Assembly (NCBI RefSeq): GCF_000235425.2
Contig: NZ_KI912266.1
Coordinates: forward strand, 6,591,464 to 6,655,463
Length of the DNA stretch: 64,000 nt
Reading direction: 5' to 3'
Origin: Pseudofrankia saprophytica
GTDB taxonomy: Bacteria > Actinomycetota > Actinomycetes > Frankiales > Frankiaceae
Positions 43,096-50,701 of this stretch are shown here, in pieces. Within the stretch, counting starts at the first letter, position 1. Every line of letters starts with the position of its first letter. The notes beneath the pieces were generated by a model. It made no database searches. It was not told the origin of the DNA and saw only the letters and a list, made by a program, of their open reading frames with translations. The translations under genes were made by a program, and so were the position numbers.

Positions 43096-44670
43096 ATGAC
43101 ACCAAGTCACGGGGGTCCGTCGGACTGGCAGCGACGCCAGCAGGCTGCCGCGAGAGACGCGGAGCGCCAGCGCAAGGAGCAAATCCGCGCCAGGGCGAAC
43201 GCCACAAAAGAGCGCGAGCAGGCTCGCCGGGAACAGCGTGCCGCGAAGGTCGCGCAGAAAAACGTGCGTCTGAACGAGACGGTTGACGAACTCCGCGAAT
43301 TTCTGCGCCGCGGCCTCGACCGTTCCGCCCGGATCGACCTAGAACGAGATCGACGAACGCTGAAGGTAGAGCCGCTCAAGCTCGGAGGCATCGCTCAGCC
43401 CGTGCCTCAGCCGCGCTGGGAGGATTTCAAGCCGGCCGAACCATCGGCGCTTTCTCGCATGGCTGGTGGAGCGGCCCGCTATGAGCGTCGAACGGCCGAA
43501 TCCAAGCAGAAGTTCGAAGAGGCCGAACGCCGAGCCAAGCAAGCCGAAGAAGCGCGATTGATACAAGTAAATGCCGCTCAAGTCGAGTACGCCGCACAGC
43601 TTACGAGCGAACGAGCCGAGGTTTCGAAGCACAACGCCGCGCTCAACAAGTACATGCAGGAGCTCAGCGAGCGAGAGCCGGCCAGCGTCGAAAGATACCT
43701 GCTGCGCGTACTGCGAGAGGCGCCACTCCCAGGCAATTTCCCCCGAAACGCGGAAGTATCCTTCAGTCGGCGCGCGGAACAAGCAGTAATCAGGTTCGAA
43801 TTACCTCCACCAACTGTCGTTCCGACCGTGGCCGCGTATAAGTACCTGCCAACCAAGGATGAAGAACGCGAGACCCAGCGAAGCAAGTCTGATGTAGCCG
43901 ACATATACCGAGGCGCAGTCAGCCAGACGGCGCTGCTCTGCTTGCGAGACCTCTTCGACTCTGATCCGTCGCTAAATTCTATAGGGTTCAATGGGCATGC
44001 CCATGTGATAAATCCCGCAACAGGCGTGCAAGAGTACCCGTGCTTCATCAGCTTGAACGTCGGGAGATCCGCGTTTCCTCGCGACGACAATCTCCGCAAC
44101 GTCACGGCGGAAAAATGCGTTCGCCACCTTCGCGCAATCGTTTCAAATCATCCATACGAACTTGAGCCGATCGAACCGATCATCGACTTCGATCTGACCA
44201 AGTTTTCTTTCGTCGAAGGGCTGGATGCAGTCTCGACTCTCGACTCTCGCCCAGACCTGATGGACATGTCGTACACCAATTTCGAACATCTCGTGAGACA
44301 AATATTTGAGGCGCAGGGAGCTGAAGGCTGGACTACACAGCAGAGCAACGATGATGGCGTGGATGCTGTGATAGTTCAGCGTCGCGCCCTCATGGGTGGC
44401 CTAACGATAGTCCAGGCAAAGCACTACAGCAAAGTGATCGGAGTCAGCCACGTACGCGAACTTGCCGGTGCCATGGAAGAAAAGAAGGCTGGGTGGGGAA
44501 TACTAATCACCACATCCTGGTTTACTTCGAACTGCTGGGACAAGGCGCGCGACCATGGCCGCATGGAGCTGATCGACGGAGAGAGGCTGATCTACCTGAT
44601 CAAGGAATATCTCGGCAAGGACGTTCTAATCGGTATTCCAAACCGCCCTCGTCCTCGTCCCAACCCGTAG
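43096..44670 (+). CDS. Coiled-coil restriction endonuclease-like protein (Mrr_cat type)
   Basis: The protein has 524 residues. The first 200 are highly charged coiled coil (RDAERQRKEQIRARANATKE and similar), then a middle domain of unknown fold, then an Mrr-type nuclease domain from about 395: FEHLVRQIFEAQG, NDDGVDAVIV with Asp423 and VQAKHY with Lys442, the D-QxK active site. It ends WGILITTSWFTSN and a Pro/Arg tail. Proteins with this layout are annotated as restriction endonucleases, often stand-alone, and some act on modified DNA. No methyltransferase partner for DNA is next to it. The gene is more A/T-rich than the RiPP genes beside it. Confidence 0.8.
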   Translation: MTPSHGGPSDWQRRQQAAARDAERQRKEQIRARANATKEREQARREQRAAKVAQKNVRLNETVDELREFLRRGLDRSARIDLERDRRTLKVEPLKLGGIAQPVPQPRWEDFKPAEPSALSRMAGGAARYERRTAESKQKFEEAERRAKQAEEARLIQVNAAQVEYAAQLTSERAEVSKHNAALNKYMQELSEREPASVERYLLRVLREAPLPGNFPRNAEVSFSRRAEQAVIRFELPPPTVVPTVAAYKYLPTKDEERETQRSKSDVADIYRGAVSQTALLCLRDLFDSDPSLNSIGFNGHAHVINPATGVQEYPCFISLNVGRSAFPRDDNLRNVTAEKCVRHLRAIVSNHPYELEPIEPIIDFDLTKFSFVEGLDAVSTLDSRPDLMDMSYTNFEHLVRQIFEAQGAEGWTTQQSNDDGVDAVIVQRRALMGGLTIVQAKHYSKVIGVSHVRELAGAMEEKKAGWGILITTSWFTSNCWDKARDHGRMELIDGERLIYLIKEYLGKDVLIGIPNRPRPRPNP

Positions 44671-44789: not shown

Positions 44790-45590
44790 TCAGTTCGCGC
44801 GGCGGTCGGCGAGCCGGCGGGCGGCGGACGCCATGCTCTGTTTCCAGGGCTGGGGGTCTGTTTCGGCGATCTCCGTCCACATCTGGGCAAGTGCTCCGGT
44901 GAAGGCGGTGACAGCCTCCGCGCGCGCGTCGCGCCAGCTGGAGAACTGTTCGCGGCCCCAGGCGTCCGCAGCGGCGGCCAAGTGGCCGGCGTCGATGAGC
45001 CTGATGAGGAGTGCGGCGGGGTCGGCCCAGGCGGGGCCGATGGTGGGCCAGGCCCAGTCGAGGAGCAGCGTCCGGTCGGCGCTGATGAGGATGTTGTCCG
45101 GGGCGAAGTCGGTGTGGAGCAGGTGGGTGCCGCGCAGGTGGTGGCGCTGCGTCGGCGGCACGTAGGCGGACCAGCGTTGCTCGACGGTCTTGATCGTCGG
45201 AACCTGCGGGCAGGGAAGGGCTGCGAGGTCGTTCAGGAGAGCCGCGACCCGCGGGAGGTCGGCCGATCCAGGCGTGTAGTCGGCGTGGCGCCCAGGGGCG
45301 TGTTCGAAGCAGAGCAGGCTCCAGCCTGCGGTTTCGAGGTCCCACAGCAGCCGTGGGGAGAGGGTGCGAACGGTCGGGTTGATGTCTCGTTCGCGCCGCT
45401 GCGAGCCGATCTGCGGATGGTCCAGCGGGATGCCCTTGACGAAGACCGGGCCGGCGGCAGTGTGCAGGGTCGCGGCGACCGCGGAGTTCACTCCGCCCGC
45501 CACCGAGGCGTGGGCAAGTACGGGCCCGATCTTGTCCTCGACCGCGGTCTGGACCTCGTCAGGCAGGTCAGCCCAGCCGATTCGCGCCAT
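44790..45590 (-). CDS. Aminoglycoside phosphotransferase-like kinase, last gene of the RiPP operon
   Basis: The protein has 266 residues from the ATG at 45590 (an upstream ATG at 45623 is possible). APH/choline kinase fold: SVAGGVNSAVAATLHT loop, Lys52 in VFVKG, the catalytic loop HTDFAPDN (159-166) and LLLDWAWP with metal Asp178. It transfers phosphate to a small molecule or peptide side chain. It lies 90 bp downstream of the 47-residue precursor on the same strand, so it may phosphorylate the peptide or give self-protection. A drug resistance role by chance neighbourhood is the alternative. Confidence 0.8.
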   Translation of the reverse strand: MARIGWADLPDEVQTAVEDKIGPVLAHASVAGGVNSAVAATLHTAAGPVFVKGIPLDHPQIGSQRRERDINPTVRTLSPRLLWDLETAGWSLLCFEHAPGRHADYTPGSADLPRVAALLNDLAALPCPQVPTIKTVEQRWSAYVPPTQRHHLRGTHLLHTDFAPDNILISADRTLLLDWAWPTIGPAWADPAALLIRLIDAGHLAAAADAWGREQFSSWRDARAEAVTAFTGALAQMWTEIAETDPQPWKQSMASAARRLADRRAN

Positions 45591-45679
45591 CGACACCGTT
45601 GTTGGATCCCTCTCGGTTCGCATGGTTCGGCCCGCCCGGGCGGCGCGGACGGGCGCCCGGGCGGGCCGGTTGATCGTCT

Positions 45680-45823
45680 CTAGTAGGGGTTGTTGTCGCC
45701 CGCGCTGCAGCTGCACATGTCCGACGCGGACAGTACGTCCAGGTCCTCGACGAGCTGCAGCTCGGTGCTGTCCTCGTCGACAGTGGCGGGACGTGGTCCG
45801 AGTTCGACCATCACGGCCGTCAT
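45680..45823 (-). CDS. RiPP precursor peptide, 47 residues
   Basis: The ATG at 45823 follows a strong GGGAGGTGA whose last three bases are the stop of the radical SAM gene; 4 bp separate the two genes. The leader is acidic (VDEDSTELQLVEDLDVLSAS), with an LxL.. LD pattern like the FxLD family. The proposed core is DMCSCSAGDNNPY at the C-terminus, with two cysteines, two serines, two Asn and a terminal Tyr. The neighbours (FxLD-type methyltransferase, radical SAM/SPASM enzyme) argue strongly for a modified peptide. It is too short for most gene finders. Confidence 0.8.
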   Translation of the reverse strand: MTAVMVELGPRPATVDEDSTELQLVEDLDVLSASDMCSCSAGDNNPY

Positions 45824-45827
45824 GGTG

Positions 45828-46940
45828 TCACCTCCCTTCGGTGTGCTGGCAGTAGGCGGACGGGGATGCCGCCGCCTTGCGGTAGAGCGTCACGAGCGGC
45901 ATGCAGGTACCGCAGGTGCCGCTGAGCGTGCAGCCCGAACAGCCGCCCTGACGGGCCAGCAGGCCGTCGGCGATGCCGCCGAGGCGGACGAGCCCGTCGA
46001 CGCCCTCGGTCAGCAGGTCGACGTGCGGATCGCGGCCGACCTTGCAGATCGACGCCTTGCCGTGCGGGTCGACGTGGAAGAACGTGTGGCCGGCGTTGCA
46101 GCCGGTGAACGGCTTGCGTGCCCGCAGATGGGCACTGGACTGCGCGGGCAGTGTCTCGGCGCCGCCGTAGATCGTCGGGGAGATGTTCGTGTACTCATCG
46201 AACGGCAGCTCGTAGCCCTCCGCCAAGGCGCGCATCTCGTCGACCTCGTCGGCGTTGTGCCGGGCGACGATCAGGTTGAGGTGCAGCGGCAGACCGGCTT
46301 CATGCGCGGCGGCAATGCCTTGGCGGAACTTGCGGAAGGAGCCTGGGCGGCGGGTCAGGCCGTCGTAGCTCGTCTCGGTCGCGCCGTAGACGCTGACGAC
46401 GATCTCGTAGGGCCGCGCCGAGGTGAACAGGTCGAGGATGGCGGGGTTCGCGAGCCTGAATCCGTTGGTGGAGATCGTGAGCATCATGCCCAGCTCGCTC
46501 GCGAGCCGGTAGACGTCCGGGAACAGTTTGTCTATCAGTGGCTCGCCGCCGGTCAGCTGCAGCCAGAGCACCCCGGCGTCCCGCAGCATGTGCAGCATCC
46601 GTTCCCGGTCCGGCCAGGCGAGACCCTCGAATCTTTTCAGGCCGAGGTAGCAGTGCTCGCAGTCGTAGTTGCAGCCGAGGTTCAGCTCGTAGGAGGCCCG
46701 GCCGAAGCCGTAGGCGGTCTCCCGCCGGACGAGTACCGCGTCGCGGACGCGTCGGCCGCCCAGGTCGACCTGCCAGGTCTGACGGGCGGCGACCGCCAGC
46801 CAGTCCGGGCAGATCAGGCCACCCGCAGACGCCTCCGCGAGTTCGGCGTACTGCTGTCGCGGAGCTTTGAAGCCCCGCCGGGAACCGGGGCGGACGAGAA
46901 GGAAATTGCCCAAGAACGGGCTCGCGATGACCTCGTGCAT
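45828..46940 (-). CDS. Radical SAM/SPASM peptide maturase
   Basis: The protein has 370 residues; the ATG at 46940 has GGAGGA 6 bp upstream. Cys90, Cys94 and Cys97 (CNYDCEHC) hold the radical SAM [4Fe-4S] cluster, and TGGEPL follows. The C-terminal third is a cysteine-rich SPASM domain (TGCNAGH, SICKVG, GGCSGCTLSGTCGTC, late YCQH) with auxiliary clusters. The first 85 residues may recognise the leader, since no separate RRE gene exists. SPASM enzymes make thioether, ether or C-C crosslinks in RiPPs. The gene lies 14 bp after the methyltransferase and 4 bp before the precursor. Confidence 0.9.
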   Translation of the reverse strand: MHEVIASPFLGNFLLVRPGSRRGFKAPRQQYAELAEASAGGLICPDWLAVAARQTWQVDLGGRRVRDAVLVRRETAYGFGRASYELNLGCNYDCEHCYLGLKRFEGLAWPDRERMLHMLRDAGVLWLQLTGGEPLIDKLFPDVYRLASELGMMLTISTNGFRLANPAILDLFTSARPYEIVVSVYGATETSYDGLTRRPGSFRKFRQGIAAAHEAGLPLHLNLIVARHNADEVDEMRALAEGYELPFDEYTNISPTIYGGAETLPAQSSAHLRARKPFTGCNAGHTFFHVDPHGKASICKVGRDPHVDLLTEGVDGLVRLGGIADGLLARQGGCSGCTLSGTCGTCMPLVTLYRKAAASPSAYCQHTEGR

Positions 46941-46954
46941 CCGGCTTCCTCCGT

Positions 46955-48178
46955 CTATGGCCAGGACAGCACGATGCGACTGTGCCGCCTGTCGATCACG
47001 CGGCCTGCGGGTAGCTGGCTGTCCTGGGTGTTTCTCGGGTGCAGGGTGACGCGGGGACCGGGTCCGTCGCGGTGGATGTCGTTCCAGTGGCGGACCTGTG
47101 CGGCGAACTCCTCTGCGAGCGTGGCGGCCTGCGGGCCGAAGCCATGGACTTCGAACCGGAACCAGTCGTGGTCGATCTTGTGCCCACCGAGGTAGGCGAG
47201 GGTGGTGCCGTCGACCGCGGCGTGGCCCATGCCGACCGGTGGCGGAATCAGGCCGGTCGTCTTCTCTTTGTCGACGGTGAGGTGGCAGTAGCCGTCGAAG
47301 GCGGTCGCCAGCCACAACTGCAACGTCTCGAACGACACCCGATTCGGAAAGATCACCCCCGTGTCGACATCAACCCGGGGCGTGCCCAGAACACCTGCCA
47401 GCTGGTCGGGATTGTCGGGAAGGTCGTCGTCGAAGACGAGCGTGATCCGTTCGCCGTCAAGCGCCAGGGTCGGTTTGTCGTGTGCGCTGGTTCCGCGCAT
47501 CGGGACAAACCCGGAGTACAGCACCGACGTGCTCTCCAACCGGTCGCCGCGGAACTCGAAGGTGACGGTGCGGTTGAGCCCGCGCAGTCGCAACGGCACG
47601 ACCAGCCGCCCACCTTCGACCAGCTGGTCGGTCCACGCGGGTGGTACGTCCCAGGCCTGGGCGGTGACCAGGACGACGTCGTAACGGGCCGACGTCGGTA
47701 GGCCGTCCTCGGCGTCGGCGAGGACGACCCGCACCTGGTCGTAGCCCGCGGCGGCCAGGCAGCGGCGGGCACGGTCGGTCACATCCGCGTCGATGTCCAC
47801 GGTCGTCACGGCGCCGGCCGGGCCGACGAGCTCGGCCGTCAGCGCCGCGTTGTATCCGCCGGAGCCAATTTCCAGGCAACGCATTCCCGGGCCGACGCGG
47901 GCAGACTCGAGCATCCTGGCCTGCAGCCAGGGAGCGGACACCGAGCTGAGCGTCACCCCTTGATCGTCCAGCTTCGTCCGCACGATGTGATCGGCGTACG
48001 CGGCCTCCAGCGACACCTCCGGGGCGAACAGATGCCGCGGCACCGCGCGGAAAGCCGCCTCCACCACAGGCGTTGTGATCATCCCGTCCGCGAGTAGCTT
48101 GCCAACCAACGCCCTGCGGGCCTCCCCCGCCCCTTGCTCGTCATCCAGGACATCGACGCTCTCAGCCATTCCAGCCAT
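46955..48178 (-). CDS. SAM-dependent methyltransferase, FxLD-system/PCMT-like
   Basis: The protein has 407 residues; the ATG at 48178 has GGGAGG 7 bp upstream. The N-terminal 235 residues resemble protein-L-isoaspartate O-methyltransferase (VEAAFRAVPRHLFAPE, SAPWLQARMLE, motif I LEIGSGGYNA at 102-111, later VVLVTAQAWDVPPAW). The C-terminal 170 residues match the extension seen in 'methyltransferase, FxLD system' proteins next to short RiPP genes. It may methylate an acidic residue or isoaspartate of the peptide; the core has Asp-Asn-Asn, a context prone to isoaspartate. It is the first gene of the operon. Confidence 0.88.
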   Translation of the reverse strand: MAGMAESVDVLDDEQGAGEARRALVGKLLADGMITTPVVEAAFRAVPRHLFAPEVSLEAAYADHIVRTKLDDQGVTLSSVSAPWLQARMLESARVGPGMRCLEIGSGGYNAALTAELVGPAGAVTTVDIDADVTDRARRCLAAAGYDQVRVVLADAEDGLPTSARYDVVLVTAQAWDVPPAWTDQLVEGGRLVVPLRLRGLNRTVTFEFRGDRLESTSVLYSGFVPMRGTSAHDKPTLALDGERITLVFDDDLPDNPDQLAGVLGTPRVDVDTGVIFPNRVSFETLQLWLATAFDGYCHLTVDKEKTTGLIPPPVGMGHAAVDGTTLAYLGGHKIDHDWFRFEVHGFGPQAATLAEEFAAQVRHWNDIHRDGPGPRVTLHPRNTQDSQLPAGRVIDRRHSRIVLSWP

Positions 48179-48238
48179 GCACGTCCTCCCTTCCACTGGC
48201 ATGGTTCCGCCGGGGATTGCCGAGAGGAAGGAGTTCGC

Positions 48239-48270
48239 TGTCCGGCGCTGTCCGCGGACACCAACGGACA
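48239..48270. promoter_or_regulatory. Symmetric array of four TGTCCG half-sites, candidate operator of the RiPP locus
   Basis: TGTCCG (48239-48244), the perfect palindrome TGTCCGCGGACA (48249-48260) and CGGACA (48265-48270). The outer half-sites are placed symmetrically, each 13 bp centre-to-centre from the palindrome midpoint, making one 32-bp dyad. It lies between the divergent methyltransferase and HTH regulator genes, where it could control both. The HTH protein at 48316 is the likely binder (inference). Confidence 0.6.
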
Positions 48271-48315
48271 CCCGTCGCGATGGTGGCCGTGGCGCATCGC
48301 CGGGATGATGGCGGA

Positions 48316-49479
48316 ATGGAGACCTTCGGCGAGGCCCTGCGCCGCTGGCGAGGCGAACTACCAATCCGTGAACTGGCCCGCCGGGCGCACTGCGGAAAAT
48401 CCCACATCTCGACACTCGAAAGCGGCCGCAGCTTCCCCAGCCTGCGCATCGCCGCGGCGCTCGACAAGACGCTGAACGCCGGCGGCGAACTCGTCGAACT
48501 CGCGGGCAGACCCCCAGCCGCAGACGCCACGGACATCAGCACGTCCGTCGCCAGCCCCGCCCTGGCAGCGGGGCCGGTCACCGCCCGATCCGTCGATCCG
48601 GCGGTGACCGGCTACTTCGAATCCCAGCTCGAAGGGCACTACCGGGCCGACATGTTGCTCGGCCCGCGCGACCTCATCCGCATCGTCGCGACCCAGTTCG
48701 AACTCATCGACCGGCTGGCCCGCGCCGCCGCCGCGGACATCCGCCGAGACCTCCTGCGTATCGGCACCGCCTACGCCGCCCTCGTCGGCTGGCTCTACCA
48801 GGACGCTGGCGACCTCGCCGCCTCAGCCTTCTGGCGCGGCATCGCCCAGGAGTTCGCCCTGCGCTCCCGCGACCCGCACCTCACCGCCTACGCGCTGATC
48901 AACCACGCGTCGGTCCGCACCGACCTCGGCGACGGCGCGGGCGTACTCGATCTGTGCGACGCCGCCCTCGCCACGAGCGACACCCTCACGCCCAAGGTCC
49001 GACTCATGACGTTGCAGCAGCGGGCACACGGCGCTTCGCTACTTGGCGACCGCGTCACCGTCGACACCCTGCTCGACACCGCGAACACCCTCACCGACCG
49101 CCTCGACGACGACCTGCCCTGGGGCAACGCCTGCCGCCGCACCCCCGGATACCTTCAGATCCAACGCGCCACCTGCTACGGCCGCCTCGGTCTCGCCCAC
49201 GAAGCCGCAGCACTCTGGGCGCAACTCCTCATGGACATCCCAAGCACCGCCCGCCGCGACCACGGCGTCTACCTCACCCGCTTCGCCACCGCCTGCGCCC
49301 AGGCAGGCCAACCCGACCAGGCTGTCCACCTCGCCCGCCAGGTCGTCCCCATCGCCGCCGAGACCGGATCCGCACGGCTACGACGAGAACTCACCGCCCT
49401 CCGCCACGGCATGCGGCCATGGAAAGATGCCCGCATCGCCACCGACCTCGCCGAGGTCCTCGCCGCAACGGAGGCGTGA
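48316..49479 (+). CDS. XRE-type regulator with TPR-like sensor region
   Basis: The protein has 387 residues from the ATG at 48316; the longer upstream frame would run through the operator array and is unlikely. Residues 3-60 hold a clear XRE HTH (FGEALRRWRGELPIRELARR, SHISTLESGRSFPSL). From about 110 the rest is helical, with TPR-like segments (AYALINHASVRTDLGDGAG, ATCYGRLGLAHEAAALWAQ). It is divergent from the RiPP operon. A quorum-like, peptide-sensing role is plausible but unproven. The pterin dehydratase gene follows after 2 bp, so they are coupled. Confidence 0.82.
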   Translation: METFGEALRRWRGELPIRELARRAHCGKSHISTLESGRSFPSLRIAAALDKTLNAGGELVELAGRPPAADATDISTSVASPALAAGPVTARSVDPAVTGYFESQLEGHYRADMLLGPRDLIRIVATQFELIDRLARAAAADIRRDLLRIGTAYAALVGWLYQDAGDLAASAFWRGIAQEFALRSRDPHLTAYALINHASVRTDLGDGAGVLDLCDAALATSDTLTPKVRLMTLQQRAHGASLLGDRVTVDTLLDTANTLTDRLDDDLPWGNACRRTPGYLQIQRATCYGRLGLAHEAAALWAQLLMDIPSTARRDHGVYLTRFATACAQAGQPDQAVHLARQVVPIAAETGSARLRRELTALRHGMRPWKDARIATDLAEVLAATEA

Positions 49480-49898: not shown

Positions 49899-50570
49899 CT
49901 ATCCATCCGGGCCACTAAATGCGAGCGGAACTCGGGTGATGATGTCCCAGTGATAGGACCTGCCTGCACGGCGTAGCTCAACCAGCGCGACAGCGTCCAC
50001 TCGGACCGTCGCCGGGGGCAGGCGGCGTAGCCTCGCTACTTCGGAGACGATCGGCTGGGCCTCGTTGGCCCCGTTGCTGTAGGCGATGCCGATGTGTGGC
50101 CGAAACCCGGCAGACCCGGCGGCGAGCCGAGAAGGGCCGAGTACGACGCCCGTGACGTCGAGAACAGCCTCGCGGACCGCGATAACTGGCTTCCACGGCT
50201 GGACGCTGAAACGGACGGCACCCGGCGACCCCGCCAGTGGACCGACCGTCAGCGTGAAAGCAGAGAAGGACGCGAGGCGCCGATGTGTCTCCAGGACGGC
50301 CGCGTCGAGGTCAGCCAGGGTGATCTGGTCAGTGAACGCGAGGCGTTGCAGCGTGAGGTGCAACCCGTCGGCCGGGACCGGGTCAAGAACGGACAGGTGA
50401 AGCCGCTCCTGGCAGCGCGCCGCAAGGGCGTGCAGCTCCGGGGCTTCTTCAAAGGTCAGCATCCAGTGGTAGGAGCGGCGGCCCGGTGTCCAGCCGGGAC
50501 GGTCCCAATGATCAACAAGCCGACTGAGCCTCGCGAACCGATCCCAGTCCTCGGCGACCTCGGAAGCCAT
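49899..50570 (-). CDS. 2H phosphoesterase family protein (2'-5' RNA ligase-like)
   Basis: The protein has 223 residues from the ATG at 50570; a GTG at 50639 in frame is an alternative. The fold has two HxTx-type motifs: HLTL at 71-74 and HIGI at 159-162, the second with Gly in place of the usual Ser/Thr. 2H enzymes hydrolyse 2'-5' linkages or cyclic phosphates in RNA, cyclic nucleotides or ADP-ribose derivatives. Some phages use them to destroy CBASS signals, and cells use them in RNA repair. It is divergent from the MazG-like gene. The replacement in the second motif may change or weaken catalysis. Confidence 0.8.
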   Translation of the reverse strand: MASEVAEDWDRFARLSRLVDHWDRPGWTPGRRSYHWMLTFEEAPELHALAARCQERLHLSVLDPVPADGLHLTLQRLAFTDQITLADLDAAVLETHRRLASFSAFTLTVGPLAGSPGAVRFSVQPWKPVIAVREAVLDVTGVVLGPSRLAAGSAGFRPHIGIAYSNGANEAQPIVSEVARLRRLPPATVRVDAVALVELRRAGRSYHWDIITRVPLAFSGPDG

Positions 50571-50701
50571 ATCCGCATATTCCGTCACCCGGCAATTCTT
50601 ACCTGCCGAGACATAGAATGTGTCGGCGTTCACGACCACGGCAACTCGCCCGCCTACCTTGAAACCAGCTGCCTAACCGCCAGACGGACAAAAGGACGCG
50701 C

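Follow-up and report, generated by a model that had tools for sequence, protein, structure and literature searches.

A compact minus-strand operon of the actinobacterium Pseudofrankia saprophytica raises the question of how its short peptide product is modified and which of its genes are responsible. The operon lies at positions 44790–48178 of a 64,000-nucleotide stretch of contig NZ_KI912266.1 (assembly GCF_000235425.2, forward-strand positions 6,591,464–6,655,463), designated the window. It is sequentially composed of genes for a TIGR04364 methyltransferase, a radical S-adenosylmethionine (SAM) enzyme, a precursor peptide, and an APH-like kinase, and had been predicted to produce a ribosomally synthesized and post-translationally modified peptide (RiPP). 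Comparison with related loci reveals that the conserved unit consists of the radical SAM/SPASM enzyme, the short precursor, and a gene for an APH-fold kinase (most loci) or a GNAT (a minority). The best explanation of the whole, which we judge evenly balanced on sequence comparison, would be a radical SAM RiPP cassette in which the enzyme joins Cys to Asx (Asp or Asn) in a ring and the kinase phosphorylates a Tyr at the tail of the core. The link between kinase and Tyr was not seen in the original prediction.

A conserved enzyme, precursor, and transferase unit

Loci were collected by enzyme profile from plasmids, bacterial contigs (the best 80 of 259), viral contigs, phages, and whole genomes. 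The resulting 258 enzyme loci, duplicates and the window included, represent 206 distinct enzyme sequences, and full-length enzyme relatives share 42–95% identity. In 253 of the 258 loci, or for 202 of the 206 distinct enzymes, the enzyme gene is immediately followed by a precursor-family open reading frame (ORF) that ends at the core, a recurrence far above chance. Three of these precursors, ending in Asn, were missed by the search pattern and assigned by eye. In three further loci (L248, L250, and L271), the sequence is cut inside the enzyme. The last two, L071 and L207, are one sequence; its class II core, GCGDDNPYR, belongs to a reading frame without a stop up to the contig end, which may represent an extended precursor, a decayed precursor, or a sequence error. 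The recurrent pairing of enzyme and precursor supports the predicted radical SAM RiPP operon; with the precursor frame conserved in related loci, the prediction withstood one of the refutation tests set for it. Gene order and conservation, as shown by these comparisons, mark the unit as a predicted RiPP cassette of soil actinobacteria, including some of the phages and plasmids that they host.

In the window, all four minus-strand frames are present at the places originally given. The first two intergenic gaps, 14 and 4 nt, are as predicted; the last, given as 90 bp, is 83 nt to the GTG start of the kinase or 89 nt to an alternative ATG. The 47-residue precursor (45680–45823), whose homologs are the small ORFs behind the enzyme in relatives, has a class I core and ends in DMCSCSAGDNNPY (45683–45721). 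A strong ribosome-binding site, GGGAGGTGA, is read directly at 45828–45836, inside the 3′ end of the enzyme gene. Precursor lengths range from 38 to 126 residues with a median of 51, under a mechanical choice of start, and the consensus start of 26 aligned precursors resembles MTAVxVEI. The leader motif LVEDLD occupies positions -23 to -18 in the window (45737–45754), and a similar motif near -20 is found by a loose pattern in 169 of 197 distinct precursors, making it a candidate recognition sequence.

The original prediction could place the core in no RiPP class, and library searches agree. The precursor matches no NCBIfam family at E up to 1 and a single Pfam family below its cut-off (E 0.06); PHROGs gave no match for precursor or kinase. 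A Pfam scan of ten neighbor gene groups, three of them without any match, revealed no transporter, in line with the original claim.

The radical SAM enzyme

The enzyme (45828–46940, minus strand) is a protein of 370 residues that scores 58.7 bits against Pfam Radical_SAM. Its N-terminal part can be aligned with SuiB and SkfB and is followed by a radical SAM domain with a CX3CX2C motif and a C-terminal region with seven conserved cysteines. In 41 aligned enzymes, Cys90, Cys94, and Cys97 of the CX3CX2C motif are invariant, as are six of the seven C-terminal cysteines; the seventh, Cys334, is present in at least 90%. The predicted structure has a mean predicted local distance difference test (pLDDT) score of 89.9. 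It superimposes on SkfB with a Z of 23.0 and a root mean square deviation (rmsd) of 5.7 over 310 residues, and on SuiB with a Z of 22.8 and an rmsd of 4.7 over 322 residues. Both alignments start near the N terminus, at residue 1–3. On this model, the N-terminal part reads as a putative RiPP recognition element.

Against NCBIfam, the enzyme gives 47 matches, none over cut-off among the 25 listed. The best score, 65 bits, is for the mycofactocin maturase (cut-off 265), and a second model of the pyrroloquinoline quinone (PQQ)/mycofactocin type scores 50.9 bits (cut-off 381.35). Scanning the 41 members returned similar distant models, with cut-offs compared for the first member; a StsB-type sactipeptide maturase is among the weak matches. 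Viperin membership was rejected, PADLOC scores being 53.6 bits or less. The enzyme of L064 is preceded, about 230 nt upstream, by an extra N-terminal piece of 47% identity that looks like a partial duplication or a frameshift.

A constrained Asx follows the cysteine

Core positions are numbered backward from the tail residue, which is position 0. The cores form two classes. Class I contains Cys-10 and Cys-8 (71 distinct cores), and class II contains a single Cys-6 (65 distinct cores); one mixed core has Cys-8 and Cys-6. In the window, Cys-10 is encoded at 45713–45715, Cys-8 at 45707–45709, Asp-4 at 45695–45697, Asn-2 at 45689–45691, and Tyr0 at 45683–45685, all on the minus strand.

The two classes are constrained at different positions. 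Position -4 of class I is Asp in 66 of 71 cores, and position -2 is Asn in 33, Gln in 28, Ala in 8, and Val in 2. Class II has Asn at position -2 in all 65 cores, followed in each by Pro, and Asp (50), Asn (11), or Glu (4) at position -4. Asp-3 is conserved in both (64 of 71 and 64 of 65). Counted as Cys-X3-Asp/Glu pairs, class I therefore has Asp in 66 and Glu in 1 of its 71 cores; class II has Asn instead in 65 of 65. On a FastTree tree of 196 distinct enzymes, class I shows 13 changes at position -2 and 3 at position -4, and class II shows none at position -2 and 12 at position -4. The swap of rates between the classes is significant (Fisher p 1.5e-5; 8e-4 and 3e-3 for the two positions singly, by branch length). 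Parsimony places three separate switches between the classes on this tree, the mixed core being additional.

PapB joins Cys to Asp or Glu by a thioether in Cys-X3-Asp/Glu motifs, although other spacings are tolerated in vitro (PMC9413430). Given this precedent, and because the constrained Asx shifts with the Cys while the X3 spacing is kept, a similar Cys-X3-Asx thioether is suggested. In this model, the N-terminal part of the enzyme would bind the leader at its motif around -20, and the enzyme would bond a Cys of the core to the beta carbon of an Asx located four residues further on, forming a ranthipeptide-like thioether. The partners would be Cys-8 and Asp-4 in class I, the window included, and Cys-6 and Asn-2 in class II. 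We put this pair of steps forward tentatively, at slightly less than even confidence. The original prediction had named Cys, Ser, Asn, or Tyr as crosslink sites. Cys and Asx stay good candidates; Ser and Tyr are unlikely, because no Ser is invariant and Tyr is replaced in 53 of 58 kinase-free loci.

Several observations weigh against the best explanation. Five of the 71 class I cores depart from Asp at position -4, with Ser (4) or Glu (1). Cys-10 has no Asx at X3 spacing, position -6 being mostly Ala or Ser, which leaves half of the class I cysteines unexplained. Ser-9, the best-kept Ser, is found in 58 of the 71 class I cores and in 30 of the 40 kinase-positive ones, and could be a site there; it is not kept in class II. 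The frame of L071 and L207 reads through the core, and the position rates presuppose that the precursors evolved along the enzyme tree.

The enzyme may instead make alpha-carbon thioethers (sactionines) or other links without Asx, an outcome that we consider possible and give somewhat less weight. The fold likeness to SkfB, SuiB, and CteB-type maturases, the weak StsB-type matches, and the unpartnered Cys-10 all favor it. It sits poorly with a class-specific constraint that shifts with the Cys by exactly two residues, onto Asp or Asn.

The tail tyrosine accompanies the kinase

The kinase gene (44790–45596, minus strand) encodes 268 residues from GTG 45596, with an alternative ATG at 45590, and matches PF01636 with 27.7 bits (cut-off 23.2). 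The predicted structure has a mean pLDDT of 96.0 and many near-tied APH-fold matches, led by 3csv (Z 17.1), LicA (17.0), corramycin phosphotransferase (16.9), and AmiN (16.6). Its conserved residues are Lys54, Glu69, His161, Asp163, Asn168, and Asp180. Asp163 is found in 136 of 148 linked kinases and the other five in all 148. A single NCBIfam match, at E 0.24, was obtained, and no named NCBIfam family fits the kinase of the window.

Loci were called kinase-positive when a kinase profile scored above 30 bits within 2.3 kb downstream. Among the 253 loci counted, the tail residue is Tyr in all 195 kinase-positive ones; the 58 kinase-negative loci have His (35), Phe (15), Asn (3), or Tyr (5). Per distinct enzyme, the tail is Tyr in 155 of 155 with a kinase versus 4 of 47 without. 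In the tree set, the kinase loci have Tyr in 150 of 150 and the adjacent Pro in 149, the remaining positions being variable. Tyr is the sole position fixed across both classes of kinase-positive cores, and no Ser or Thr is invariant. The 43 kinase-free loci of the tree set have Asp-3, Asn-2, and Pro-1 fixed and a variable tail residue; the three Asn loci stand outside these position counts and inside the count of tail-residue changes. Since Tyr is fixed with the kinase and the tail varies without it, Tyr seems to serve the kinase rather than the enzyme.

The enzyme tree points the same way. By parsimony, kinase presence changed five times and the state Tyr/not-Tyr six times. All eight reconstructed tail-residue changes fall on kinase-free or transition branches, which make up 21% of the tree length. 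The chance of this placement is about 3.5e-6 under a uniform rate, and 5e-5 for the six changes off the transition branches.

Because kinase-positive loci all have Tyr and the tail residue changes only elsewhere in the tree, we infer that the kinase probably phosphorylates the Tyr of the core. It would act on the hydroxyl of the Tyr that closes the NPY motif, leaving a phosphotyrosine at or next to the C terminus.

The pattern has weaknesses. Parsimony yields only three kinase losses and two regains, and an independent-pairs sign test is not significant: among 5 pairs, 3.4 go the same way, 0 the opposite way, and 1.6 show no difference (median p 0.25), with a similar outcome on a 106-row tree. 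Five loci, L097, L112, L113, L245, and L246, have Tyr without a kinase; L245 and L246 were rechecked for one with about 4 kb downstream. Glu replaces Asp163 in 12 of the 148 linked kinases. In addition, the kinase is not exclusive to the cassette: kinase relatives are also found elsewhere, in some cases next to small, unrelated genes.

Tailoring, immunity, or another substrate

A GNAT gene often takes the slot of the kinase. Of the 53 non-Tyr loci, 51 have a GNAT; so do 4 of the 5 Tyr loci without a kinase and 9 loci that also have a kinase (one of these nine, L064, was counted on 48 bits only). Only 3 of 253 enzyme loci carry neither transferase.

Kinase relatives are also found apart from the enzyme. 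In the genus of genome G161, probably Streptomyces, 37 of 101 genomes contain them (48 matches). Twenty-eight unlinked kinases were taken as having no enzyme match beside them, five with weak partial matches being left out, and 27 were placed on a kinase tree. Five (L284, L285, L286, L287, and L293) nest among the linked kinases, and 16 cluster separately. The remaining six make up two long-branched groups (4 and 2 kinases) whose placement among the linked kinases is unsure. The window's genome has an unlinked kinase of its own (L315) that likewise nests among the linked ones. All six nested kinases keep Lys54, His161, Asn168, and Asp180; L286 and L293 have Glu instead of Asp163. L284 retains an enzyme stub and a precursor that is broken, L293 has a precursor but no enzyme, and the kinase locus of L286 contains a stop.

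These data bear on a reading in which the kinase or GNAT is an immunity enzyme that masks a harmful finished peptide, by phosphorylation of Tyr or by acetylation elsewhere. This reading shares its substrate site with the best explanation and differs from it in purpose. APH and GNAT are the two classic antibiotic-modifying folds, and self-resistance kinases phosphorylate antibiotics. That the two share the cassette slot, that six unlinked kinases nest among the linked ones with catalytic residues kept, that loci lacking both transferases are rare, and that amicoumacin kinase and corramycin phosphotransferase are among the near-tied fold matches are all consistent with immunity. The asymmetry between unlinked kinases and rare transferase-free enzyme loci suits an immunity role, but it suits decay as well: the unlinked kinases may be relics, as the remnants in L284 and the stop in L286 suggest. 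Further, the fold ties are uninformative (Z 14.8–17.1 among the 50 matches listed), three loci do without either transferase, and the peptide is not known to be toxic. Immunity is rather unlikely, and the tailoring and immunity roles of the kinase rank close.

Another reading is that the kinase acts on some other substrate and that Tyr is kept in kinase loci for reasons of clade. The small number of independent switches and the kinase relatives apart from the cassette speak for it. It would leave unexplained that the tail residue (Tyr, Phe, His, or Asn) changes only where the kinase is gone, that parsimony places five Tyr losses, all in three kinase-free lineages and none in the 195 kinase loci, and that neighboring core positions do vary in kinase loci. 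We regard it as quite unlikely and retain the core Tyr as the probable substrate.

Other surroundings of kinase relatives were recorded. The window's genome contains L315:1393-2283, an intact relative with the catalytic residues, and L316, in two pieces. More distant relatives lie behind tiny zinc-ribbon-like ORFs such as CDHEWVPWSGEQRCRKCGATKR (L288, L294, L300, and L301); in L288 and L294, a gene resembling a phage antirepressor by eye precedes this pair. In L299 and L303, the relative follows a protein ending in CSQCHANCSDSPNHP, and the upstream protein of L295–L297, of 153–184 residues, is similar; these five loci are possibly another peptide–kinase pair. In L298 and L302, the relative stands directly behind a different radical SAM enzyme, an arrangement that suggests further kinase-linked systems.

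The methyltransferase adjoins the enzyme in one lineage

The methyltransferase gene (46955–48178, minus strand), the first of the operon, scores 499.7 bits against TIGR04364, the family of FxLD-system methyltransferases (cut-off 320). It had been taken as part of the system, acting on Asp/Asn. With a threshold of E 1e-10, it lies next to the enzyme in no genome but the window's and that of Pseudofrankia sp. BMG5.36 (L030 and L203); 242 of the 258 loci have at least 1300 nt upstream. L030 and L203 are both 92% identical and probably one strain. In L032 and L034, a relative of 37–40% identity lies farther upstream, at 3.4 and 2.6 kb, respectively. For the enzyme, comparison of the window with L030 gives a ratio of non-synonymous to synonymous differences (pN/pS) of 0.13, indicating purifying selection, and the three genes other than the precursor span 0.13–0.21; the precursor shows one synonymous and one non-synonymous change, too few to judge selection.

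The window's genome contains a second TIGR04364 gene (L002:1477-3009), followed by an 85-residue FxLD-like precursor with EFELDLQVIES and CDTSDGCGSTCATTACISNANDPF; the pair is likely an FxLD lanthipeptide system. Adjacency in a single lineage and an FxLD partner elsewhere make the methyltransferase look recruited in Pseudofrankia, as a local, lineage-specific addition to the cassette, and the claim that it belongs to the core was rejected. In favor of a four-gene system with the methyltransferase as an integral partner acting on Asp/Asn are its high score and the 14-nt gap to the enzyme. The cores beside it read D-N at positions -4/-3, where D-D is usual, and D-N is the more aspartimide-prone pair. 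In view of its adjacency to the enzyme in a single lineage only, and of L100, which has Asn at -3 without a methyltransferase, this is very unlikely. Within Pseudofrankia, the methyltransferase might additionally esterify a core Asp, a step held with low confidence.

The cassette of the window resembles FxLD lanthipeptide systems in this methyltransferase and in the leader DLD motif, which is similar to FxLD. The model for FxLD precursors is TIGR04363. The cassette differs in that its precursor matches no NCBIfam model, the methyltransferase is absent beside nearly all relatives, and the window core lacks the Cys/Ser/Thr-rich tail of the L002 precursor. No lanthipeptide dehydratase or cyclase was found among 7 window proteins scanned.

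Comparison with other peptide systems

In the weakest alternative, the enzyme would act on the aromatic residue at the tail in the manner of PqqE and MftC on Tyr, which we consider most improbable. Most cores do end in Tyr and the mycofactocin maturase gives the best NCBIfam score, but 65 bits is far under that cut-off, and 53 of 253 loci with clear enzyme homologs have Phe, His, or even Asn in place of Tyr. With Tyr replaceable, a PQQ/mycofactocin-type aromatic crosslink was rejected. The cassette shares a related radical SAM/SPASM enzyme and a C-terminal precursor Tyr with these systems; the Tyr, an invariant and modified residue there, is dispensable here when the kinase is missing.

Ranthipeptides such as PapB/freyrasin are alike in having a radical SAM maturase, a leader-bearing precursor, and, for the core class of the window, Cys-X3-Asp. 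The PapA system is not known to include a kinase. The cassette differs in its very short core with one Asx at X3 spacing, in the Asn of class II, and in its kinase or GNAT partner; PapA contains six Cys-X3-Asp motifs (PMC9413430). Overall, the cassette would work like a radical SAM RiPP of the ranthipeptide type with a peptide kinase. It was not assigned to the ranthipeptides, the FxLD lanthipeptides, or the mycofactocin-type systems, because traits that define these groups are lacking or lie beyond what sequence can show.

Class V lanthipeptide clusters contain a kinase, and the likeness lies in an APH-fold kinase within a RiPP cluster. Their core Ser/Thr has no invariant counterpart here, where the predicted kinase target is Tyr. 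For the same reason, dehydration by a kinase and a lyase was rejected; no partner lyase was found among the ten neighbor groups scanned. The kinase shares with the antibiotic phosphotransferases AmiN and corramycin phosphotransferase a fold (Z 16.6–16.9 over 238–248 residues) and the catalytic residues, and it has the APH superfamily traits of fold and catalytic Lys, His-x-Asp, Asn, and Asp. It differs from them in fitting no named NCBIfam family and in its genetic linkage to a RiPP precursor.

No NCBIfam model over cut-off, among the 25 listed for the enzyme, names the cassette. No paper naming it was found in the open literature, which does not show its absence from print. PMC9303977 and PMC12710340 concern other systems, and in PMC11002830 the matches on kinases and phages lay in the reference list.

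Distribution and neighboring genes

The enzyme is present in 13 of 396 genomes of a phylum sample (E 1e-20, distant enzymes counted). At E 1e-60, the counts are 70 of 392 sampled genomes for the G161 genus and 6 of 35 for the family of the window, its own genome counted. The orders to which the Actinomadura craniellae and Amycolatopsis eburnea genomes belong have the enzyme in 37 of 345 and 9 of 397 genomes, respectively, and the family that includes the Winogradskya humida genome has it in 24 of 250.

Mobile elements also carry the cassette. In Streptomyces phage Success, an isolate with a complete genome, it forms genes 3, 2, and 1 at one genome end. Among 50,697 phage records, only the two Success entries match the enzyme over at least 80% of its length, and they alone match the kinase. 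Plasmid carriers include phiDSM40276 and one Streptomyces plasmid encoding a portal protein. In IMG/VR, whose own assignment defines viral nature, 21 of 23 matches are 46–65% identical across the whole enzyme.

Ten loci (L025, L057, L061, L063, L064, L072, L079, L098, L120, and L027) have a gene of 144–235 residues with a CCQD motif behind the cassette; the one scanned had no Pfam match. L027 is a phage-plasmid in which the kinase is missing.

In the window, an NsdA-family HTH/TPR regulator (48217–49479; 165.7 bits, cut-off 75) is divergent from the methyltransferase and may control the operon. A plus-strand gene with an Mrr_cat domain lies at 43096–44670 and scores 381 bits as a PADLOC type IV methyl-directed restriction enzyme. 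A 2′-5′ RNA ligase/LigT-like protein is encoded at 49899–50639 on the minus strand.

Implications

The cassette is common and has no name in the family libraries consulted, and its small size would allow reconstruction in a laboratory host. Its kinase–Tyr and Cys–Asx patterns constitute two sharp predictions that can be tested jointly. The most far-reaching form, a ranthipeptide-like ring followed by a phosphotyrosine made by an APH kinase, with kinase and GNAT as interchangeable immunity enzymes of a compact, self-contained peptide weapon or signal encoded on actinobacterial chromosomes, plasmids, and phages, is unlikely to hold in full. If the kinase assignment is true, a kinase with an antibiotic-resistance fold would act on a peptide Tyr, which would be unusual, as would a complete modified-peptide cassette in an isolated phage.

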